A stretch of 64,000 bases of DNA from Leptolyngbya sp. FACHB-321 (GTDB lineage: Bacteria > Cyanobacteriota > Cyanobacteriia > Leptolyngbyales > Leptolyngbyaceae). The DNA lies in contig NZ_JACJPI010000064.1 in NCBI RefSeq assembly GCF_014695975.1, positions 62,001 to 126,000 of the forward strand. The letters are read 5' to 3'. This document shows positions 1,468 through 14,811 of this stretch, in pieces. The position numbers and the translations under genes were made by a program. Numbering within the stretch: position 1 is the stretch's first letter; the number at the start of each line of letters is the position of its first letter. A model generated the notes under the pieces. That model saw only the letters and a program-made list of their open reading frames with translations, made no database searches and was not told the origin of the DNA.

Positions 1468-1848
1468 GTGACAGTTAAACGAGTTTTGATTATTGATGAC
1501 GAAGATGATATTCGAGAGGTCGCCCAAACCAGCTTAGAAATTATGGGAGGGTGGAACGTTTTCACAGCCGCCTCTAGCCACGAAGGCATTACAATGGCTG
1601 AAGCAGAACAGCCAGACGCAATCTTGCTTGATGTGATGCTGCCTGATATGGATGGTCCTGCTACTTTTCAAAAACTGCAAGCCAATCCCACAACAGCTCA
1701 AATTCCAGTTATTCTACTAACGGCTAAAGCCCAAGCCTCTGACCAGCGCTACTTTGCTGACTTAGGTGTTATGGCTGTATTAACTAAACCATTTGATCCT
1801 GTTACCTTAGCTGACCAGGTTGCAGAAGCACTTGCTTGGAATGTATGA
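1468..1848 (+). CDS. Single-domain response regulator (CheY-like receiver)
   Basis: This 126-residue protein is a receiver domain only. It has the acidic pair DDE near residues 10-12, the phospho-acceptor Asp in LLDVMLPD (about residue 55), the switch Thr in LLTAKA and the conserved Lys in LTKPFDP. There is no DNA-binding or enzymatic output domain, so it probably passes the signal on through protein contacts or a phosphorelay. The start is GTG at 1468, preceded by GCGAGGTG about 7 bases upstream; an ATG at 1461 is in another frame. It lies between a histidine kinase and a GGDEF-EAL protein on the same strand, which suggests a kinase-receiver-c-di-GMP pathway (inference). Confidence 0.93.
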   Translation: MTVKRVLIIDDEDDIREVAQTSLEIMGGWNVFTAASSHEGITMAEAEQPDAILLDVMLPDMDGPATFQKLQANPTTAQIPVILLTAKAQASDQRYFADLGVMAVLTKPFDPVTLADQVAEALAWNV

Positions 1849-2016: not shown

Positions 2017-3699
2017 ATGCAAGAACAGAGTACAAGTTTCCCCCCTCATAGTGCAGCCTGCGGACCTCCCGTTGCTCCAAGGCCAAGTAGCGATGATATC
2101 GCCGCTTTGGTGAGCTATGAACTCCGCACTCCGCTTACCTCCATTCGGGCAGCACTCGGTTTGTTGATGACCGGGATGCTAGGCACTTTGCCCGAGCGAG
2201 GGCAACGCATGTTAGAGATTGCATTAAGCAATACTGACCGCTTAATGCATCTCGTTGAGGTATTAGAGCGTGAACCAGAGGTAGCCAACAGTTTGACAGT
2301 TCCGCCAGCAGTAGAGAATGCCCCTGATCCAAATATACAGAGGCTTTTACCTTTAAGCCTTTGGCGACGTCAAGCTTACTACGACAGTCTGACTGGCTTA
2401 CCCACCCAAGCATTGTTTCTCAGTTGGCTCAACCAGTCTTTTGCACCACTCTCAACCGTAAACCAGCCACAAACGCCACCGCTCATTGCCGTGCTTCTGG
2501 TTGATCTGGATCGGTTTCAGGTGATCAACGACAGTTTGGGCTATGACATGGGAGACCAATTGCTGATGAAGATTGCCGATCGTTTAGCTGCTGCTCTCCC
2601 AGCAACAGGCGCGATCGCTCGCTTGCAAGCAGACAAGTTTGCGATTTTACTGCGAGATGTTGCTGCTATGGACCTAGCAGTGGCGGCAGCAGACGATATC
2701 CAGCAAGCGCTCACTGCCCCGTTTAACCTGAATAATCAGGAAGTTTTTGTGACAGCTAGCATAGGCATTGCCTGGAATCAAACAGTCTACGATCGTGCCG
2801 AACATCTCCTGCATGATGCTGATACAGCCATGTACCAAGCCAAAGCACTGGGTAAAGCCCGTTGTGAAATTTTTGATGTTGGCGTGCGACTGGAAGCAAC
2901 CTCTCGTTTACGCCTCGAAACAGATCTCCGACTTGCTCTAGAGCGCCAGGAATTTAAACTTTACTATCAGCCGATCGTCTCCATTGCGACTCAACAAATC
3001 ACTGGCTTTGAGGCATTGATACGCTGGCAGCATCCAGAAAACGGACTGGTATCACCATTGAAATTTATTGCTTTGGCTGAAGAAACTGGTTTAATTAACC
3101 CGATTGGTCAATGGGTGTTGCGCGAAGCGTGTCGGCAGCTCTGCCTTTGGCAAGCACAAACCCCGATGGAACCACCCCTAACCGTTAGCGTGAACCTTTC
3201 AGCCCAGCAATTCTCGCAACCTGATTTGGTTGAACAGGTGCAACAAAGCCTTGCAGAAACCGGACTAGATCCACGTAGCCTCAGGTTAGAAATCACCGAA
3301 AGCGCCATTATGGCGAATCCTGAAACTGCTGCCAGGATGTTGCAACAGATCAAAGCTCTAGGTGTTCAGCTCTATATCGATGATTTTGGCACTGGCTATT
3401 CTTCGCTGGCTTATCTACACCGCTTCCCCATTGACACGTTGAAGATTGATCGATCGTTTGTTAACCGCGTCGATGTTGATCTGGAGCAACTGGAAATTGT
3501 CCGTACAATCATTCAGCTTGCCTGGAACCTCGGTATTAATGTGATTGCTGAGGGTGTAGAAACATCCAAACAACTAATGCAGCTCAAGGCGCTTAGATGT
3601 GATTACGCTCAAGGCTTTTTCTTCTCAAAACCGCTTGATAGTGAAGCTGCTGGTGCCTTTATCAAGCAAAGCTTATCACCCCAGGCTGATGCCGTTTAG
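2017..3699 (+). CDS. HisKA-like (Tyr for His) + degenerate GGDEF + EAL protein
   Basis: Residues 25-87 are a HisKA-type dimerisation helix pair closely resembling those of the kinases at 1-1389 and 5473-7839. The H-box reads VSYELRTPLTS: the phospho-accepting His is Tyr34 (codon TAT, 2116-2118), and no HATPase domain follows. A GGDEF domain (about 120-285) starts with DSLTGLPT, but its signature is QADKF (204-208) instead of GGDEF, so cyclase activity is unlikely. The EAL domain (about 300-550) keeps EALIRW (332-337), the NLSAQQF segment, DDFGTGYSSL (455-464) and AEGVET, so c-di-GMP phosphodiesterase activity is plausible. No membrane segments are seen. The domain may pair with a neighbouring kinase or receive the signal of the receiver at 1468 (inference). 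Confidence 0.93.
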   Translation: MQEQSTSFPPHSAACGPPVAPRPSSDDIAALVSYELRTPLTSIRAALGLLMTGMLGTLPERGQRMLEIALSNTDRLMHLVEVLEREPEVANSLTVPPAVENAPDPNIQRLLPLSLWRRQAYYDSLTGLPTQALFLSWLNQSFAPLSTVNQPQTPPLIAVLLVDLDRFQVINDSLGYDMGDQLLMKIADRLAAALPATGAIARLQADKFAILLRDVAAMDLAVAAADDIQQALTAPFNLNNQEVFVTASIGIAWNQTVYDRAEHLLHDADTAMYQAKALGKARCEIFDVGVRLEATSRLRLETDLRLALERQEFKLYYQPIVSIATQQITGFEALIRWQHPENGLVSPLKFIALAEETGLINPIGQWVLREACRQLCLWQAQTPMEPPLTVSVNLSAQQFSQPDLVEQVQQSLAETGLDPRSLRLEITESAIMANPETAARMLQQIKALGVQLYIDDFGTGYSSLAYLHRFPIDTLKIDRSFVNRVDVDLEQLEIVRTIIQLAWNLGINVIAEGVETSKQLMQLKALRCDYAQGFFFSKPLDSEAAGAFIKQSLSPQADAV

Positions 3700-3886: not shown

Positions 3887-4264
3887 ATGGAACCTTTGCT
3901 AATCAACGAAAAACTTGTTTCACTCTTTAATTTTTGGGCTGATGGCAAATTGCAAAGCGGCATGCGTTGCTCAAACGAATTATTTCGTCAGGTACGCACT
4001 TTCGCGTTTGATCAGCGTCAGAGAGTTTACTCGTTGGGCTGGGCGTTAGCAGAGCGAGGCATCCAAGTTGTTATTACCTGGTCGCATCGGGGGTATGGGC
4101 TTTGGATTTGCCTCCGTGTACCTCAGACGCTACCGAAGCCTGTGCAAAGAACCCAACCAGGCAGTCGTACAGTGCCTGTTACAAAGCTTGTGGCTACCAA
4201 ACCGCACCAGATGCGCTCTAAGTATGGGAATGTAAAAAAACGTTCCCTGGCACAGGTAGTTTAG
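3887..4264 (+). CDS. Small conserved-looking protein of unknown function
   Basis: I do not recognise an established domain. The protein has 125 residues. Its first ~80 resemble small cyanobacterial proteins I have seen with a pattern of FxFW near the N-terminus, a Cys-containing middle and a YxLGxALAxxG segment (residues ~50-60 here). The last 40 residues are basic and rich in Thr/Val/Lys, with no signal peptide or membrane helix. The ATG at 3887 follows a ~190-base gap after the GGDEF-EAL gene, so it may have its own promoter. The MITE-like element begins 122 bases after its stop. Function unknown. Confidence 0.6.
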   Translation: MEPLLINEKLVSLFNFWADGKLQSGMRCSNELFRQVRTFAFDQRQRVYSLGWALAERGIQVVITWSHRGYGLWICLRVPQTLPKPVQRTQPGSRTVPVTKLVATKPHQMRSKYGNVKKRSLAQVV

Positions 4265-4604: not shown

Positions 4605-5492
4605 ATGCGTAAGTCAACGAGTGAAAATCGCTCTCAATCTAAGACGATTTCAACTAAATGTTTTCTGCTAACGACCCTTCCCTTCCTGGTGGTGTTTATG
4701 TTTGCAGCCGCGGATAACAGCGGCTCCAATACCGTGCCTGTTAGAGTAGACCGATGGCTAGAAATTCAGCAGATGGCTGGTCCAGTTACTCTATATCGAG
4801 GACAATCCTCTCAACCAGCGCGGGTCGGTCTGCGGCTACAGGCAGTTGGCGATGGAATTAAGACTGGGAGCAAAGCAAAGGTGGTGTTAGCTGCCGATAC
4901 AGGTATTGGCACCATTAGCGTTTCGGAACAGACCAGCCTACGCATTCAAACATTGCAAGTGGCTCCTGGAAACGGACGCATCACGCGGCTCCAGGTGACG
5001 GGTGGGCAAGTGCGCTTGAAGGTGCGACCCTTTACTAATCCTGGCTCTCGCCTAGAGATTCAAACTCCAGCCGGTGTGAGCGGTGTACGAGGCACTGAGT
5101 TCGGCGTGAGTATTCAGCCCGATGGCAAAACTGGGCTGGCGACGTTGAGCGGCAGTGTCGTCAGTAATGCACTAGGGAAAGCGATCGCGGTGAATGGAGG
5201 GTTCCAGAATTTAGTGGTTGCAGGCGAACCACCGTCTCCTGCGGTGCCCTTGCGAAACGATACCAGCTTAAAAATTGAGATTCGCAAGGAAATTAAAGGC
5301 AATGTGCGCTGGGCGCGTCTCATCGGTCAAATCGACTTTGTGAATGGGTTGACGATCGCAGGGCAGCCACAAGTTACTGATCGCAATGGTCGGTTTGACC
5401 TGACCTTACCCATTGCCTCCCAAGCACGGGTGCAGGCAGTCGTAACAACGCCGTTAGGCAAAAAGCAGGTGTATGACCTGGCAACCTGGTAA
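4605..5492 (+). CDS. FecR-domain secreted or membrane-anchored protein
   Basis: A 295-residue protein with a basic N-terminus followed by a hydrophobic stretch (about 20-36), acting as signal peptide or anchor. Residues ~50-210 are a FecR-type beta domain, visible in the pattern LRxGDxIxTG...VxL...G, the segment LEIQTPAGVSGVRGTEF and a following strand-rich region. The C-terminal ~70 residues look like a carboxypeptidase-regulatory-like beta sandwich (GRFDLTLP). The ATG at 4605 has AGAAGGGA just upstream. The gene overlaps the CHASE2 kinase by 20 bases, so the two are probably co-translated. I infer that it senses or relays an extracytoplasmic signal to the kinase; the ligand is unknown. Confidence 0.85.
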   Translation: MRKSTSENRSQSKTISTKCFLLTTLPFLVVFMFAAADNSGSNTVPVRVDRWLEIQQMAGPVTLYRGQSSQPARVGLRLQAVGDGIKTGSKAKVVLAADTGIGTISVSEQTSLRIQTLQVAPGNGRITRLQVTGGQVRLKVRPFTNPGSRLEIQTPAGVSGVRGTEFGVSIQPDGKTGLATLSGSVVSNALGKAIAVNGGFQNLVVAGEPPSPAVPLRNDTSLKIEIRKEIKGNVRWARLIGQIDFVNGLTIAGQPQVTDRNGRFDLTLPIASQARVQAVVTTPLGKKQVYDLATW

Positions 5493-7839
5493 GTTAGGCT
5501 GGCGGCTACTTCCCGGTACCGCTACGGCTCTTGTCGTCGCACTGCTGTTTAAGTTGAGCGCCTGGTATCCCCTAGAGCAGCTTTCCTATCAAGCCTTGTT
5601 TCGCCTTCGGGGACCAACTGCCTGGGATGAGCGAGTGGTGGTAGTGACGATCGACAATGCCAGTTTAAAGGCGCTGGGTCGGTTTCCCTGGTCGCGTCAA
5701 CGCTATGCTCAACTGCTGAAGGCGTTAACCAAAGCAGAGGCAAGTGTGGTTGCCTTTGATATGTTGTGGTCTGAGCCGAGTGCTGAAGATACGCAACTGG
5801 CGAGTGCGATGCAGCAGCATGGGCGCGTGGTAGTGGCTCAAGCGTGGGATCACACTGGCGTACGATTAGTGCCAACCCCACTCTTGCAGGAATCAGCGAT
5901 CGCGGTTGGGCACATCCGCAAACATGAGAACTTAGGTAATCTAACCCAGCAGGTTGATCTTCAGATTGGTGAGCATACAGCGCTAGGCATCGCAGCGGTG
6001 CAGTCCTACGGGCTAGTCCAAGCCCCAGTGAACTTACCCGACCTTAAGCAGCCGTTTTGGATTAACTGGCCCGGTCCGGTAGAAGAAGCAACGTCCTATT
6101 CCTTTATCAAGGTGCTTAAAGGGCAGATTCCATCTCAAGCATTTAAGGACAAAATTGTTCTAGTTGGCTTGACAGCAACAGGGTTTGATCCATTAGATAC
6201 GCCATTTAATAGCAATCCAGCCACAAGCGGTATTTACCTTCATGCCGCTGTCGTTCATAACCTACTACGACAAAACCCGCTGCACCGTGTTCCAGACTAC
6301 TGGCTGTTACCCATCCTGCTCTTTGGGGGACCGGGCTTGAGCTTCTTTTTAAGCCATTGGCGGTTCAGGCTCCGGTTCGGTAGTTGGTTGGGCTTGAGTG
6401 TAACCTGGGTAGGCTTGAGTGTGCTGTTGCTCTGGGCTGGCTACTGGTTGCCCGTTGCCTTGCCGTTGGCATTGTTCACCGGGACACTGGGCACAACCTT
6501 GCTTTGTGAACAACTGAGAATGAGTGCCTTGCTGCAACGGCAGGTCAAACATCTTTGGCAGACCTACACTCCAGAGGTGGTGCTTGACAATACGCGATCG
6601 CTGCAACCGACGCCAGCCAACTACTTGCAGCAACCAGTATTAGTCCAGCAGGCAAGCCAACTAGCAGCTTTAGCAGAACAACTGGGGCGATCGCAAGCGG
6701 CTCAAGCGGCGATCGCCCGCAGTCTTTCTAGCGGTTTGCTTGCTGCTGATTTAGATGGGCTTGTTTGGTTTTGCAATCCTGTAGCAGCGACTTTGTTGCA
6801 GATCCATGTGGGCGATCGTCTTGACGATCATTTGGTGCCTCAGTGGCTCTCTAAGGCTCAATGGAAGGCAGATCTACAAAGCTTGAAAGCACAGCAACCG
6901 CTGAGCGTACATGAGTTACATCGCGGTGAGCACTGGTTAGAACTAAAGTTAGAGCCACTGTTTTATCAACCGCTGACTGGAGAAACCGCAGGTCAAATGC
7001 AGCCCTTAGATGGTCTGTTGCTGATTCTGAATGACATTACAGAGCGTCGTCTTATTGAACAAATGAAAAGTGAACTGGTTGCGCTAGTCAGTCATGAACT
7101 TCGCACACCTCTTACATCGATTCAAGGTGCTTTAAAACTGCTGCAAACTGGGAAGCTGGGCACTCTGCCAGCTAACGGACAGCGGATGCTTGATATAGCC
7201 GCCAAAAACACGAACCGCTTGATGCGTTTGACTAACGACCTCCTTGACCTAGAGCGCATTGAGTCAGGGACGGTTAGTTTATCCCAACAGTGCTGCCAGA
7301 TTGCGGCTCTCTTAGAGCAGGCAGCGGCAGTCATGCAAACAATGGCGGATGAGCAGTCTGTAGTTTTAGCGGTGCATTCCGTCAGTGCAAATGTTTGGGT
7401 TGATTCCGATCGCCTACTTCAAGTGCTGATCAATTTGCTGAGTAACGCCATCAAATTCTCCCACCCAGGCGGCAGCATCTGGCTCAACGCTGAGTTCCGG
7501 GCCGAAGCACTAGAGCATGGCAGGACGATCGAACTGAAGAGCCAAGGTGCAGAACGATCGCCGCACTTATCTGAAGTGGGTCACAACCCAGCACCTTACC
7601 TTCTCATTCGTGTCAAAGATGAGGGGCGAGGCATTCCCGCTGACAAGCTTGAGGCAGTCTTTGAACGTTTTCAGCAGGTAGAAGCGGCAGATGCTCAACA
7701 AAAAGGTGGCACAGGCTTAGGGCTAGCAATTTGCCGCACCATTGTGCAGCAGCATGGTGGACACATTTGGGTAGAAAGTGAGTCAGGTCAAGGTTGCACG
7801 TTTTGTTTGACCTTACCAAGTCATATTAACCACTGTTAG
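5473..7839 (+). CDS. CHASE2-domain sensor histidine kinase
   Basis: A 788-residue membrane kinase. TM1 is at about 9-31, followed by an extracytoplasmic CHASE2 domain (about 32-270, with VVVVTIDNASL, FPWSRQRYAQLL and FKDKIVLVG motifs), then three close TM helices (about 277-345). A linker and PAS domain (about 405-525) lead to HisKA with SHELRTPLTS (His541) and HATPase_c with LLSNAIKFS, DEGRGIP and GGTGLGLAI. The HisKA sequence is strikingly similar to those of the kinase at 1-1389 and the Tyr-substituted protein at 2017. The start lies inside the end of the FecR gene, with AGCAGG upstream. No receiver gene follows it, so its partner may be the lone receiver at 1468 (inference). Confidence 0.94.
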   Translation: MTWQPGKLGWRLLPGTATALVVALLFKLSAWYPLEQLSYQALFRLRGPTAWDERVVVVTIDNASLKALGRFPWSRQRYAQLLKALTKAEASVVAFDMLWSEPSAEDTQLASAMQQHGRVVVAQAWDHTGVRLVPTPLLQESAIAVGHIRKHENLGNLTQQVDLQIGEHTALGIAAVQSYGLVQAPVNLPDLKQPFWINWPGPVEEATSYSFIKVLKGQIPSQAFKDKIVLVGLTATGFDPLDTPFNSNPATSGIYLHAAVVHNLLRQNPLHRVPDYWLLPILLFGGPGLSFFLSHWRFRLRFGSWLGLSVTWVGLSVLLLWAGYWLPVALPLALFTGTLGTTLLCEQLRMSALLQRQVKHLWQTYTPEVVLDNTRSLQPTPANYLQQPVLVQQASQLAALAEQLGRSQAAQAAIARSLSSGLLAADLDGLVWFCNPVAATLLQIHVGDRLDDHLVPQWLSKAQWKADLQSLKAQQPLSVHELHRGEHWLELKLEPLFYQPLTGETAGQMQPLDGLLLILNDITERRLIEQMKSELVALVSHELRTPLTSIQGALKLLQTGKLGTLPANGQRMLDIAAKNTNRLMRLTNDLLDLERIESGTVSLSQQCCQIAALLEQAAAVMQTMADEQSVVLAVHSVSANVWVDSDRLLQVLINLLSNAIKFSHPGGSIWLNAEFRAEALEHGRTIELKSQGAERSPHLSEVGHNPAPYLLIRVKDEGRGIPADKLEAVFERFQQVEAADAQQKGGTGLGLAICRTIVQQHGGHIWVESESGQGCTFCLTLPSHINHC

Positions 7840-9242: not shown

Positions 9243-11879
9243 TCACCCTGCTTCGCCGATGAGTGTAAAAGCAGCCCAGTCAACTGGGTCAGGATAGTCT
9301 TTCATAGTGATGAGCATTGCCTGTCGTAGCGCCTGAGCTTTGTCGGGTTGCTGTTGCAGCGTTTGGTAGAAGGTGGTCATTAGTTTAGCGGTTGCGGCAT
9401 CGGGTACTGCCCACAGGGAAACAATCACGCTGGGAACACCCGCCGCAACAAAGGCACGCGATAACCCAATCACCCCGTCGCCAGTAATTCTTCCCTGTCC
9501 GGTATCACAGGCGCTCAGCGTGACCAGTTCAGCTGTTAAGCGCAGGTTAAGGACTTCACTGGTTGTGAGTAAACCATCATCATTGTTGGATGGTGCAAGG
9601 GCGATCGCGCCTGGTACTCCTAGACCCTCCAGGGAGGCACTTTGGCTACCGTACTCCAAGAGTCCATGTGTGGCAAAGTGTATTAACCGTGCTGCTGGGA
9701 GTTTTTTGAGGATGCTGACTTTGGTTGCTTGGTTGCCTGTAAGCACTTGAGTGCCTAGTAGTTGAGCGATCGCGATCGCTTCCTTTTCTGACTCTGGTAA
9801 GGGCGGCAGTGGCTCTGGCGGTTCTCCTGGTGCAGCAGAAACCGATGGCATGGTGGGATTACCGACGACCAGAGTACCGGGTGTCGAGCGTTGGCTAGGT
9901 GTTGAGGATAGCAAGAATTGTCCCCTCTCGTTTCCCTGACTCTCCCGTTGCTTGCGGGTCAGCTCTAACACTTGAATGGCTGGCGCAGTAAGGATTGTAT
10001 GGTTTTCAATCAAGTAGTTGCCGTTCGCATCCTGAAGTGCGACAAAAGGAACCAGAAAGAGAGCTTCTTGAGGGATGAAGACAAGGCGGGCACTGGGGTT
10101 ACGAGGCAAAAGATCGGCGATCGGCTCAATGAGAAGCTGATGCAGTTTCCGTAGCCCTGGCTGTTGACGACGCTGATCCGTACGTGCGATCGACGAGGAC
10201 GAGGTTGGCGTAGACTGAAGCGGTTCGACGCTTTCCAGACCACGAACTTTTTGTGCCAGGTCGCGACAGAGCGGTTGTGGTGTCAGACAGCGGGCAAGGC
10301 GAACAGCATCCACTAGCGTGACTCCATTTTGCCACAGTGGTTTGAGGTCAACACGCCGAACAGCGACCTCACCCGTTGGCTGCACAACCCAGATCAGGAG
10401 TTCAGCTTCTCTAGCACGCTGCTTTCCCTGCACCTTGAAGTCATCATCTGGCACGATCGCATACTCCACTAAGGTGGCGTTTTGCTGGCGCGCTACAGCT
10501 TTAATCGCAGCGATCGTAATCGGCTGCACTGCTAGTGCAGCGTTGTTAGCTCCTGGTAGCTGGTTCGGCTCCTGACCGTTCGGCTCGCTTTCATCTCCTG
10601 CATCTGCACCCTTTGCACTCTCGCTGCCTCCCCCTGGTAGCCGCTGCGCGAGCAATTCTACAAACGCCCGTGCTCGTCCATGCTCAGTGATTTCTAGTGC
10701 TGCTTCGGGCTTTTGGGCAGCCAGTAGAATTTGCTGAAGCAGGTTATAGGTGTAGATTTGGGTGTCAAAAATGGAGGCTTTGTACGTGTCATTGAGTCCA
10801 GGGCGGAGAGCATCAAGCAACTGGATAGCTGACCGCAAGCGCTGTTCGGCTTCTGCCAATTTACCAGCACCAAAGAGAGCATGACCCAGGTTGTTGAGTG
10901 TCAACCCTTCAAGCTGCGGGTCATTAAGCTGTTGCGCGATCGCCACGCTTTGCTCGTAATAATTAATTGCTTTGGGATAATCCTTTAAATCTTCGTATGC
11001 CAGCCCCAAACTACTCAAGGCTTCTGCGGTTCGTTTGCGACTGTTGATCCGCTGCGAGATCGTCAAACTTTCGTTGTAGTAACTGATCGCTCGCTTGTAG
11101 TCATTGCGAACATGATAAGCAGTGCCCAAATTGATCAGCGTACTCGCTTGCCCTTCGCGATTACCCGTAGCTTTTGCAAGCGCCAAACTGTTTGTCTGCG
11201 CGATGATCGCCTTGTCATGCTGACCGAGATTGGCATACACGCCACCCAAATTGCCTTGAGCAACGCCTTCTCCCGCTCGATCGCCCCGCTGCTGAGCCAG
11301 GTTTAAACTTTGCTCATAGGCGATCGTCGCATTTTCATAATCACCCAGTGCTTCAAAAACATTGCCCAGATTGACCAGGACTTGCCCCAAACCTGCACGA
11401 TCGCCGAGTAACCGCATCAGCTTGCCAGCTTGTCGGTGCGATCGCAGTGCCTGGTTGTAGTTGCCGAGTTCTTTGTACGCAATGCCCAGGTTGCCAAGCG
11501 CCTGAGCTTCACCTTGACGGTTGCCCAATGAGTGAGCCAAAGGCAAAAAGGCTTCTAACGCCGCGATCGCGTCCCGATAACGCTCCAAGGCAACATACAC
11601 TGCACCTAAATTTGCCAGCGCGATCGCTTCTCCTACGCGGTTCTGGAGTGGCTGATAGGCTGTACGTGCCTGCTGCCATAATTTTACCGCTGCTTCAAGT
11701 TGCCCTACCTGGTATGCCTGGTTGCCCTGTTGCATCAGGCGATCGACAGCACTAGCATCTATGTTCTTAGAATGCTCCAGTTTGGCAGCGGTTGACGCAC
11801 TCTGAGCACTCACCCCCAGCGGTAGAGCGATCGCAACCAGTAAAGGAATTGCCCCTAATTCAAGCCATTGTCGCTTCAT
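9243..11879 (-). CDS. Exported TPR-CHAT domain protein (caspase-like protease)
   Basis: An 878-residue protein. A signal peptide (1-25, ending VSAQ) precedes about seven 40-residue TPR units (45-345; repeated patterns such as LGNLGIAYKELGNYNQAL), a low-complexity linker (415-450) and a C-terminal CHAT domain (about 580-875). The predicted His-Cys dyad is intact: His738 in HFATHGLLE and Cys791 in LSACDTGQG. CHAT domains belong to the caspase-like clan CD peptidases. The gene starts 46 bases after the exoprotein gene on the same strand and is almost certainly co-transcribed with it. Processing of the exoprotein or of another exported substrate is a reasonable guess, but nothing here proves it. 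Confidence 0.92.
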   Translation of the reverse strand: MKRQWLELGAIPLLVAIALPLGVSAQSASTAAKLEHSKNIDASAVDRLMQQGNQAYQVGQLEAAVKLWQQARTAYQPLQNRVGEAIALANLGAVYVALERYRDAIAALEAFLPLAHSLGNRQGEAQALGNLGIAYKELGNYNQALRSHRQAGKLMRLLGDRAGLGQVLVNLGNVFEALGDYENATIAYEQSLNLAQQRGDRAGEGVAQGNLGGVYANLGQHDKAIIAQTNSLALAKATGNREGQASTLINLGTAYHVRNDYKRAISYYNESLTISQRINSRKRTAEALSSLGLAYEDLKDYPKAINYYEQSVAIAQQLNDPQLEGLTLNNLGHALFGAGKLAEAEQRLRSAIQLLDALRPGLNDTYKASIFDTQIYTYNLLQQILLAAQKPEAALEITEHGRARAFVELLAQRLPGGGSESAKGADAGDESEPNGQEPNQLPGANNAALAVQPITIAAIKAVARQQNATLVEYAIVPDDDFKVQGKQRAREAELLIWVVQPTGEVAVRRVDLKPLWQNGVTLVDAVRLARCLTPQPLCRDLAQKVRGLESVEPLQSTPTSSSSIARTDQRRQQPGLRKLHQLLIEPIADLLPRNPSARLVFIPQEALFLVPFVALQDANGNYLIENHTILTAPAIQVLELTRKQRESQGNERGQFLLSSTPSQRSTPGTLVVGNPTMPSVSAAPGEPPEPLPPLPESEKEAIAIAQLLGTQVLTGNQATKVSILKKLPAARLIHFATHGLLEYGSQSASLEGLGVPGAIALAPSNNDDGLLTTSEVLNLRLTAELVTLSACDTGQGRITGDGVIGLSRAFVAAGVPSVIVSLWAVPDAATAKLMTTFYQTLQQQPDKAQALRQAMLITMKDYPDPVDWAAFTLIGEAG

Positions 11880-11925: not shown

Positions 11926-14811
11926 TCACTCTCCCAGAATCTTGAGAATCTGTGCATCATCTTGGGCGGCTGAAGCACAGGGATTGCTGGCAGTGGTAGA
12001 GGCAGTGGTGACTCTGGGCGATCGAGTTTCGGAAACGGAGGATGTTGTATTGGGTGCAGCGGCGATCGTGTTGGGCAGTTCACAACTCGCATCCTGCTTC
12101 TGGTTGTTTAATTGCCGCTGAGCGACCTGCCCATCCTCTCCAGCTTGGAACCGTTGCCGCAAACCTGTCAGAGGATCAACGGGTGGAGGGCTGCCCTCGG
12201 TAGGAGGAACGGGTGGGGGGTTGCCCTCGGTAGGAGGAACAGGTGGAGGGTTGCCCAGTGAATTACTTCCAGTTGCAACGGTTGGAGCTTGGACTAAAGG
12301 CACAAAGGGAATTCCTGGGAACGATCGACCACCATTTGAGTTTTGAGCCGCATCAGTAGCGATCGTGCCTGCTGTACCACTGACATTACTAGGGAACTGG
12401 TTAGAGCCCAACGTTAAAGGCAGATACGATTGAAACTTAACTGCGGAACCTGTGTAAAAAATGCCGCTTGGACTATTTGGGACAAATCCAGTTGCAGAAA
12501 GGTCTGTCACCTCAAACTGGTTAAGGCGCTGTTGTTGAGGACCAACAATAAATTGTGCTGTTCCATTGCTACCAGGAGCAGTTTCAATAGCGACAAAGCC
12601 ACTGTTGTTAGTTACTGGCTTACCGCCATGTCGAATTGTAATTTGGCTGCCTGCACCTCCATCACGAGCAAGAATGCTGGCAGTCAGCCCAGTATTATCT
12701 TCAACGATCGTGCGCCTACCAGAGGTTGGGTCAACGCTAACGATACCAATGGGGTTGCCTTCACTGTCTTCGTACTTAGGCTGATTCGCTTCATCTCTAA
12801 CGATGTTTTTGTCAATATTGATGGAGCCATCTGTATTTAAGATGCCGCTAGTCTGCAAAAACTGTTTAATATCTTTGTTTTCTTCAATATCAATATCGAC
12901 CACAGTCAAAGGCTGAGCAAATAAGCGACTACCAGTAGCCTGAAATAAACCAGGAGTACTAATATCAATTTCAACCGTTGTACTCCCTGACCTGACAGTA
13001 GTTGTAATCGTTGCCACTTTAATGTTGCCACCGCTGGTATATAACTTTGTTGAATCTGTCGCTTTGATGTCCCCTGCTTGAATATTACCTGAACTGCTGA
13101 TCCTCACGGTTGCATCCAGTCTTGCATTAAAACCGTCCATAGTATCGATGTTGCCTGCAATGACATTAGCTCCAGAAATCGTCAGCTTTCTTCCATTAAC
13201 AAGAAGGCTATCGCCTTGATCCATGACAAAATTACCGACACCATCCTGATCGGAGTCTGCTTTGAATGTAATCGAACTGGAATCATCGCCAGGAATTGTT
13301 AGCGCCTTATCAGTCAACGGCTCGATCGTAATGTTGTTTGTTGCCTCCAAAACAATATCGGCAATAGAAGTCATTCCTTCAAGCTCAGATTCATAAATTA
13401 CCGTTGGCACAGCGTCATCTGCTTGAACCTGACCGTTATCACCCAAAAGATTATTACCAAAGGTACCTGTGGTCACGCCATTATCATCACCGTCACCCGT
13501 ACCGTTTTTAATGAGAATATTTGCTGGGTCAAGTAACAGAGAGCCAGATTTTCCACTTGGGCTACTTGTATCAACAGTGCCTTGATACACTAAGTTGCTC
13601 TTGCCTGATACTTCGACAAAGCCACCATCCCCTGCTTGAGCACCACCCTGCACCCGAATCGTGCCATAGAATTCTGTACGCTGATCTGACCAAACGATCG
13701 CTCGTCCCCCATTTCCCGTTTGCAGCGCATCAGCTTGAATAATCGAATCTGGGCTGATGTAGGTTTGTTGTGCCTTGGGAAGGGTGCCTTGTCCTTTATA
13801 ATCACCACCAATTAGAACGGTGCCCCCACCATTTGTGCCAGATGCATCGATCGTTGCCCCGACTAAGCCCACTTTCTGACCGAAAACATTAACGTTGCCG
13901 CCTACAGTGCCCCTGGTAGACACTTGACCAGAGACGATCGCCACTCCTGCATTGGTCGGTATAATGGTTCCTGAACCTGTCAGCGTGACGATGCCATTTT
14001 CAACCGTGACTCCTGTAGCACCGCTTAAATTGCCGCCTGTCAAGAGTTCGGGCAAGGTCAAGGGATTAAATGGTTGGGGATTGATGGCGGCTTTGGTGGC
14101 AGTGGGCAAGTCAAGGCTGAGTAAGCTGCCAGTTGGAGTGAGGCGAACCAGTTTCTCGCCCGGAATCGCCGCGATCGTTACCTCCCCTTCAGGTGCCGTC
14201 AGCGTTCCGGTATTAATGACAATACCGCCTAGCAGCGTCAGGCTTTGCCCTGTGCCGACTGCTAAATTACCTGCATTGACGATCGCTCCGGGCTGCGTCA
14301 TGGTAAATGCAAAGCTGCTGGGATTGCCAATCAACGTTGCATAATTGTTCGCACCTACGGCATTGAACCAGCGATCGCCAAAGCCAATACCGTTTGCGGT
14401 GGTAGCGGTGAATGACCCTGCCACATCCAAACGTGCATTGGCACCAAACACAATGCCTGCTGGGTTTATCAGGTACAGATTGGCGTTGCTACCCGTTACC
14501 TGAAGCAGCCCGTTGATCACCGAGGCTTCACCACCTGTCACTCGCCCCAGAACGTTTTGAATGGCAGGATTGGCAAGGAAGCTAGCCACCTGTCCTTGCG
14601 TGAGTCCAAACTGCTGGAAACTGTGAAATAGATTGTTACCAGCGGTGGTGCCACCCGTAATGTTAAAGGTGTTGTCAGTCTGACGAACGATCGTCTGTGT
14701 ACCGTCGATCGCGCTCGTTACCTGTGCTTGACAGGGCAATGCTGCAACCAGCAGTGTTGAAACCAGCAGTAGGCTACCTATTTCTAAACGTGGTTGCATA
14801 ACCTTAGCCAT
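11926..14811 (-). CDS. Filamentous haemagglutinin-type exoprotein (TPS domain)
   Basis: A 961-residue secreted protein. After a signal peptide (about 1-29, ending CQAQ) comes the two-partner-secretion N-terminal domain (about 30-150), with the typical HSFQQFGLTQGQVASF and NLYLINPAGIVFGANARLD motifs, followed by Gly/Thr/Asn-rich parallel beta-helix sequence to about residue 850. A tandem Pro-rich repeat PPVPPTEGNP/S (about 860-890) links to a C-terminal tail with two Cys. Proteins of this kind normally cross the outer membrane through an FhaC/ShlB-type TpsB pore; no such gene lies in the window. The ATG at 14811 and another four codons later are both possible starts. It is the promoter-proximal gene of a pair with the CHAT protein. 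Confidence 0.9.
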   Translation of the reverse strand: MAKVMQPRLEIGSLLLVSTLLVAALPCQAQVTSAIDGTQTIVRQTDNTFNITGGTTAGNNLFHSFQQFGLTQGQVASFLANPAIQNVLGRVTGGEASVINGLLQVTGSNANLYLINPAGIVFGANARLDVAGSFTATTANGIGFGDRWFNAVGANNYATLIGNPSSFAFTMTQPGAIVNAGNLAVGTGQSLTLLGGIVINTGTLTAPEGEVTIAAIPGEKLVRLTPTGSLLSLDLPTATKAAINPQPFNPLTLPELLTGGNLSGATGVTVENGIVTLTGSGTIIPTNAGVAIVSGQVSTRGTVGGNVNVFGQKVGLVGATIDASGTNGGGTVLIGGDYKGQGTLPKAQQTYISPDSIIQADALQTGNGGRAIVWSDQRTEFYGTIRVQGGAQAGDGGFVEVSGKSNLVYQGTVDTSSPSGKSGSLLLDPANILIKNGTGDGDDNGVTTGTFGNNLLGDNGQVQADDAVPTVIYESELEGMTSIADIVLEATNNITIEPLTDKALTIPGDDSSSITFKADSDQDGVGNFVMDQGDSLLVNGRKLTISGANVIAGNIDTMDGFNARLDATVRISSSGNIQAGDIKATDSTKLYTSGGNIKVATITTTVRSGSTTVEIDISTPGLFQATGSRLFAQPLTVVDIDIEENKDIKQFLQTSGILNTDGSINIDKNIVRDEANQPKYEDSEGNPIGIVSVDPTSGRRTIVEDNTGLTASILARDGGAGSQITIRHGGKPVTNNSGFVAIETAPGSNGTAQFIVGPQQQRLNQFEVTDLSATGFVPNSPSGIFYTGSAVKFQSYLPLTLGSNQFPSNVSGTAGTIATDAAQNSNGGRSFPGIPFVPLVQAPTVATGSNSLGNPPPVPPTEGNPPPVPPTEGSPPPVDPLTGLRQRFQAGEDGQVAQRQLNNQKQDASCELPNTIAAAPNTTSSVSETRSPRVTTASTTASNPCASAAQDDAQILKILGE

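Follow-up and report, generated by a model that had tools for sequence, protein, structure and literature searches.

A conserved pseudo-DHp domain as the probable input module of a putative cyanobacterial GGDEF-EAL phosphodiesterase

A gene of the cyanobacterium Leptolyngbya sp. FACHB-321 raises the question of what purpose a HisKA (DHp) domain can serve when it has neither the phospho-acceptor histidine nor the catalytic (CA) domain of a histidine kinase and is joined instead to a GGDEF-EAL protein. The gene lies in a window of 64,000 nucleotides (the whole stretch of DNA that was analysed), which belongs to a contig of 334 kb in a genome of 6.7 Mb. Its + strand neighbourhood consists, in order, of an OmpR-type regulator, a GAF-PAS kinase that starts before the window, a receiver, the gene in question, a 125-aa ORF, a FecR gene and a CHASE2 kinase. 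The features within the window are the following:

1-1389, + strand: 3' part of the upstream GAF-PAS histidine kinase; the whole gene (919 aa, L036:8630-11389) begins before the window
1468-1848, + strand: single-domain response regulator, receiver only (Pfam Response_reg), candidate docking partner
2017-3699, + strand: gene for the Tyr-DHp/degenerate GGDEF/EAL protein, 560 aa (ORF, translation, Pfam, AlphaFold)
2095-2265, + strand: HisKA/DHp domain, residues 27-83, a two-helix hairpin without CA (Pfam; helices; six homologues with 38 invariant columns out of 57)
2116-2118, + strand: TAT, encoding Tyr34 at the position of the phospho-acceptor His (TAT or TAC in six of six homologues)
2128-2130, + strand: Thr38, the H+4 position of the phosphatase motif, Ala in genome G204 (alignment)
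2374-2859, + strand: degenerate GGDEF domain, residues 120-281 (Pfam)
2626-2640, + strand: QADKF replacing GGDEF, residues 204-208 (translation, comparison of homologues)
2923-3633, + strand: EAL phosphodiesterase domain, residues 303-539 (Pfam; invariant columns; alignment to 5m3c and 4rnh)
3887-4264, + strand: 125-aa conserved ORF, no Pfam match, with relatives among the small genes of the sister clusters
4605-5492, + strand: FecR-domain gene overlapping the CHASE2 kinase gene (Pfam)
5473-7839, + strand: CHASE2-HisKA-HATPase kinase (Pfam)

Two large ORFs on the - strand farther along were judged by eye only: 9243-11879 appears to encode a TPR-type protein with a CHAT-like C-terminus, and 11926-14811 resembles filamentous-haemagglutinin N-terminal secretion domains.

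A sequence-only reading of this DNA had described the protein as a Tyr-bearing HisKA domain without an ATPase domain, followed by a dead GGDEF and an intact EAL domain, and these assignments hold, as do the exact limits of the ORF. Pfam places HisKA (PF00512) at residues 28-81 with 38.1 bits (curated cutoff 26.9), GGDEF at 120-281 with 121 bits and EAL at 303-539 with 276 bits, and it returns no HATPase match in the five Tyr-DHp proteins scanned, including that of the window. In the AlphaFold model (mean pLDDT 85.7 at full length) the N-terminus forms a helical hairpin (25-51 and 60-85, pLDDT 93-98), whose nearest solved folds in Foldseek are DHp domains (probability 1.00, with E values >0.1 because the domain is short); the DHp of GacS matches with a TM-score of 0.83 by target and an rmsd of 1.2, and the RetS-GacS complex (7n0e) also ranks with the best structural matches. 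A profile built from six N-termini of this type matches histidine kinases of the PDB at E 2e-5. The HisKA assignment stands well above chance because the curated cutoff is passed in every homologue tested, the model is a hairpin and the closest folds are DHp domains. The protein thus belongs to the HisKA/DHp domains by profile score and by its two-helix hairpin, and it is not a histidine kinase, having no CA/HATPase domain and, in the H-box VSYELRTPLTS, Tyr34 at the acceptor position. Because Tyr replaces His, the DHp should be unable to accept phosphate. Pfam detects no sensor domain ahead of the DHp in the window protein, and the input must therefore arrive through the DHp itself, the candidate partners being a receiver or another kinase.

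At the output end, the EAL domain retains FEALIRW and DDFGTGYSSL, and all the motif residues of the class (E332, N393, E425, D455, D456, K476, E512 and Q532) are present and invariant in a 37-row alignment; they also match those of the solved GGDEF-EAL proteins 5m3c and 4rnh, which we take to be RbdA and MorA, respectively. Judged from these residues, the domain looks active, and the enzyme probably destroys c-di-GMP. The GGDEF domain has lost the GG(D/E)EF signature of a cyclase in all six members of the group described below, where it reads QADKF, REDEF, QEDEF or QDSEF, so that the first two glycines are missing from every one. RbdA and MorA share the tandem GGDEF-EAL arrangement and the intact EAL motifs, and proteins of their type take input from PAS or other sensors; the window protein differs in having a DHp in the place of the sensor and in the loss of the GGDEF signature. 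Similarly, cyanobacterial PAS-GGDEF-EAL proteins (e.g., L007-L009 and L011) are 57-60% identical over GGDEF-EAL but have a PAS-like N-terminus where the window protein has its DHp.

The same architecture occurs in six of 390 cyanobacterial genomes, distributed over three families (f1, f13 and f24), and always with Tyr. A full-length protein search found the same N-terminus in none of 58 relatives, and a search for the SYELRTPL codon pattern in 42 genomes of the same family matched the window only; extending the pattern to the class (390 genomes) revealed a Tyr homologue in four more genomes, and the sixth member, from G204 (L177:8299-9990), came from a further full-length protein search. No related loci were found in a search of loci with the N-terminal 128 aa, and the best matches in a plasmid search span GGDEF-EAL alone or begin inside the DHp. 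The H-box is VSYELRTPLTS in five members and VSYELRAPLTS in G204, the only one with Ala in place of the H+4 Thr, and neither Phe nor any other substitute appears at the Tyr34 position among the six. E35, R37, P39, T41, S42 and G48, in the H-box and the following turn, are invariant over the three families. When the six-member N-terminal profile was run against all HisKA domains of the 390 genomes, the members scored E 1e-42 to 1e-51 and the next domains 1e-26 and weaker, a clean separation of the Tyr clade from every other HisKA. The tyrosine would have been a recent mutation if most homologues had His, as the sequence-only reading had allowed; this is not so for the same architecture, and His is universal only in a sister architecture without GGDEF, considered below. 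A recent mutation or a sequencing error at Tyr34 is ruled out by the occurrence of Tyr in six genomes, encoded by TAT or TAC. In the draft assembly of G262 the Tyr gene (L166) is split by a frameshift, and in that of G268 the receiver gene (L167) is frameshifted; both are likely errors, because the assemblies are drafts.

Comparison of the domains indicates where selection acts. Among the six members the DHp has a mean pairwise identity of 85% (38 of 57 columns invariant), against 73% in EAL (120 of 239) and 54% in GGDEF (34 of 167); in the tail and linker the value drops to 27-30%. The dN/dS ratios, which are rough since dS exceeds 1 in some pairs, follow the same order: 0.00-0.03 for the DHp, 0.02-0.04 for EAL and 0.08-0.15 for GGDEF in the closer pairs, and 0.02-0.03, 0.035-0.038 and 0.14, respectively, for G103 against G268/G262. 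By both measures, the kinase-dead DHp is the most constrained part of the protein and GGDEF the least. Being the most constrained domain, the DHp is neither decaying nor a mere spacer, and a relic is ruled out by the conservation and the dN/dS values; the domain gives the impression of a functional plug into which a signalling partner fits.

The neighbourhoods of related receivers in other genomes brought to light a second architecture, first met in G091 and G040, in which a HisKA domain with His is followed directly by EAL, without GGDEF or HATPase. Eighteen such sister proteins were found in a search of 208 genomes (loci including L226:8477-9577, L223:8047-9234 and L242-L259), and the four scanned with Pfam contain HisKA and EAL only. 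The histidine is kept in all 17 with a readable H-box, the called ORF of G018 starting inside the DHp, and the sister DHps also keep the +1 Glu and the +4 Thr. In 13 of the 18 loci, annotated by motif and by eye, the same single-domain receiver gene precedes the DHp-EAL gene in the same orientation, which is also the arrangement in the window; a rough estimate of such a linkage by chance, which assumes 150 receivers among 6500 genes, is of the order of 1e-18. Often an OmpR-type regulator precedes the receiver and hybrid kinases follow. The Tyr clade shares with this family the absence of a CA or sensor domain, the fused EAL and the upstream receiver gene, and differs in keeping GGDEF, which the His group is without. 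The His-bearing proteins are possibly undescribed so far, and no description of DHp-EAL or DHp-GGDEF (HisKA-EAL or HisKA-GGDEF) architectures was found in the open-access literature.

Trees of the DHp, built on 63 columns with the His/Tyr column removed, resolve three groups, namely the kinases, the Tyr clade and the His-EAL family, with the Tyr clade between the other two. Support is 98/96 for the kinases versus the rest and 99/95 for the His-EAL family, and is weak for the Tyr group itself (45/1). The EAL tree has the Tyr clade (monophyly 73/67) in an intermediate position, with ordinary GGDEF-EAL proteins (96/92) on one side of it and the His-EAL family (99/93) on the other. The simplest account of these topologies would be a single fusion event that placed the DHp of a kinase on a GGDEF-EAL protein, after which one branch dropped GGDEF and kept His, and the other kept a decaying GGDEF and exchanged His for Tyr. 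The idea that the DHp copies the HisKA of the flanking kinases survives as a resemblance (59-66% identity to the CHASE2 kinase, about 52% to the upstream one) and not as a simple copy, since the tree groups it with the sister DHp-EAL proteins, apart from all kinases. A recent copying of a flanking HisKA was likewise rejected as unsupported by the DHp tree, although 63 columns are little data.

The gene neighbourhood offers candidates for the missing partner. The two-component setting that had been read from the sequence is confirmed: each of the two flanking kinases has a His-bearing HisKA and an HATPase domain, and the Tyr gene is strongly linked to two-component genes. The receiver at 1468-1848 has an acidic pocket (D10/D11), Asp55 and the Lys of TKPFD. 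Its orthologues in other Tyr-DHp genomes are 77-80% identical to it, its top four matches in the 390 genomes are the window's own and those of three other Tyr-DHp genomes, and a frameshifted copy lies at the Tyr locus of a fourth, G268; the receiver beside the G040 sister protein is 67% identical. The genes are tightly packed in G103: the kinase gene runs 11 bp into the receiver gene, which in turn shares 13 bp with the phosphodiesterase gene, and the gene of the CHASE2 kinase begins 11 bp on; this spacing suggests that the four form one operon. In both G103 and G153 the gene immediately after the Tyr gene is the counterpart of the CHASE2 kinase. The upstream kinase of G103 (L168:5192-8581) is a hybrid with two C-terminal receivers, and its window counterpart stops after HATPase. 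The 125-aa ORF is 35-36% identical to small genes in sister DHp-EAL clusters (E 8e-20 and 4e-17) and, by this similarity, is a real conserved gene. Kinase genes adjoin the Tyr gene or its receiver at all loci examined, so that linkage alone does not pick the partner, because the kinases are linked too.

The reading that we prefer, and to which we give about an even chance, is that the protein is a dimeric phosphodiesterase in which the DHp acts as the socket where the neighbouring response regulator delivers its input. The DHp, taken from a histidine kinase, would form a dimer and present the usual response-regulator docking face; the receiver, phosphorylated by one or both flanking kinases, would dock on this face and alter the DHp bundle, and the change would travel along the second DHp helix, then through the linker and the degenerate GGDEF, until it reached the EAL dimer. 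The state of the kinases would thereby govern the breakdown of c-di-GMP. Dephosphorylation or sequestration of the regulator may be a further function of the DHp, and the degenerate GGDEF may have a role such as GTP sensing. In the His-bearing relatives the same docking would be combined with real phospho-chemistry, either phosphotransfer, as in Spo0B, or phosphatase action. Spo0B is a stand-alone DHp phosphotransferase without an active kinase CA domain that communicates with a single-domain receiver; unlike the window protein, it keeps His, passes phosphate on and has no EAL, and it is a nearer analogue of the His sisters than of the Tyr clade.

A precedent for the Tyr branch is DivL of Caulobacter crescentus and other alphaproteobacteria, in which Tyr also replaces the phospho-acceptor His. 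Its Tyr-DHp reads the phosphorylation of a receiver without kinase or phosphatase activity, serving as a docking site for the single-domain receiver DivK~P; mutation of R553 or T557 disrupted DivK binding, and the Tyr is dispensable for it, since Y550H binds DivK equally (PMC4211667). The equivalents of R553 and T557, R37 (+3) and T41 (+7), are invariant in the Tyr clade, and by this analogy the window DHp may work as DivL does, binding a phosphorylated single-domain receiver. A scan of contigs for the motif gave, among the matches listed, 37 with a parsed ORF, none having EAL or GGDEF by motif; these ORFs look like DivL, and such alphaproteobacterial contigs share the SYELRTPLTS of the window protein. 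Tyr-DHp-EAL proteins may still occur beyond the cyanobacteria. The analogy is incomplete because DivL retains CA and PAS domains and has the kinase CckA as its output, whereas the window protein has neither domain and its output is the EAL of the same chain. It has not the PAS-DHp-CA architecture of the DivL family, and common descent was rejected in favour of two H-to-Y changes: the DHps are not sisters on the tree, and a joint clade of Tyr and DivL sequences has a p-AU of 0.033 in a short alignment. Separate origins of Tyr in DivL and in the cyanobacterial clade are thus favoured.

The receiver is favoured as the partner because the sister DHps keep His, the +1 Glu and the +4 Thr, which are the parts needed for phospho-chemistry with a receiver, and because R37 and T41 are invariant, the receiver is the most constant neighbour and its top matches lie in Tyr genomes. 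Two loci count against it. In G204 the Tyr gene adjoins a kinase, no orthologous receiver is nearby and the H+4 residue is Ala, which would fit a loss of receiver chemistry there, in one case; in G153 the kinase-receiver pair lies about 10 kb from the Tyr gene on the other strand.

The sequence-only reading had proposed a dimerisation-only DHp that docks on a paralogous kinase. In this model the Tyr-DHp forms a mixed dimer with the DHp of the CHASE2 or the GAF-PAS kinase, so that either the kinase conformation controls the phosphodiesterase or, as with RetS, the phosphodiesterase inhibits the kinase. This is possible but unlikely, and the proposal is demoted rather than refuted. It draws on the CHASE2 kinase having the nearest HisKA in the genome (66% over 58 aa), on the kinases at every locus, on the G204 locus and on known mixed pairs, namely RetS-GacS (7n0e), a precedent for DHp contacts between different kinases in which both partners are large kinases with no fused EAL, and HrrS-ChrS (PMC9491836). 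However, when a CA-truncated ChrS pseudokinase was put to a two-hybrid assay, its pairing was not significant (PMC9491836), and DivL, the closest known Tyr-DHp, binds a response regulator via the same face (PMC4211667). The DHp tree, moreover, sets the Tyr clade apart from all kinases (98/96), identity to the kinases is about 60% versus 85% within the clade, the His, H+1 Glu and H+4 Thr of the sister family are needless for a pure dimerisation clamp, and the constant neighbour in both subfamilies is the single-domain receiver (67-80% identical), whereas the kinases vary.

It is unlikely that the DHp is only a constitutive homodimeriser that holds two EAL domains together without docking or signal. 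EAL phosphodiesterases commonly act as dimers and the protein has no other obvious dimerisation segment, but neither the six invariant H-box and turn residues, nor the histidine of the sister family, nor the tight linkage to receivers and kinases is explained by such a role. A third model makes the DHp a phosphatase or sink for the response regulator, Tyr preserving dephosphorylation without kinase action, with the phosphodiesterase controlled otherwise; we regard it as quite improbable. A DHp is able to dephosphorylate its regulator without other domains, an EnvZ in which Tyr replaces His243 reportedly retains phosphatase activity, and the H+4 Thr is kept in five of six members. Against this, the Tyr-bearing DivL is devoid of phosphatase activity and makes DivK~P more stable (PMC4211667), HK853 H260A has lowered phosphatase activity (PMC5727384), and G204 has Ala at H+4. 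A vestigial or accidental fusion, in which the DHp is a non-functional remnant of a kinase, is very improbable: the patchy distribution (six of 390 genomes) and the loss of His and CA would suit it, but the DHp is under the strongest purifying selection in the protein and is conserved across three families with linked partners. Scarcely credible is phosphorylation of Tyr34 itself, in trans by a flanking kinase, as the invariance of the Tyr might suggest, since there is no CA domain in cis and, to our knowledge, histidine kinases do not transfer phosphate to a Tyr at the His position. The Tyr-bearing DivL was not phosphorylated (PMC4211667).

The window protein thus carries a conserved, selected pseudo-DHp input domain on a phosphodiesterase and belongs to a wider cyanobacterial family. 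Somewhat short of an even chance, this may be a new family of cyanobacterial phosphodiesterases that use a sensorless DHp as a response-regulator port, with a reversed flow from regulator to DHp to enzyme; its His branch would be phosphorylatable, and its Tyr branch would have converged with DivL, moving from phosphotransfer to phospho-reading. Among the few pseudo-histidine kinases, DivL is the principal example of His-to-Tyr that has been studied. The present one is apparently independent, comes from another phylum, lacks the kinase catalytic domain and is fused to an enzyme, which makes it easily assayed. The His-bearing sisters offer a direct comparison between versions of one architecture that have a phospho-acceptor and versions that do not, in which the role of the Tyr can be tested by simple swaps. 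Two-component control of c-di-GMP in cyanobacteria is exemplified by CdgK-CdgS of Anabaena, where receiver and GGDEF cyclase form one chain (PMC9927289); in the present case the DHp derived from a kinase sits on the enzyme, and the receiver is a protein of its own. This arrangement suggests a possible two-component route to c-di-GMP control other than the fusion of receiver and enzyme.
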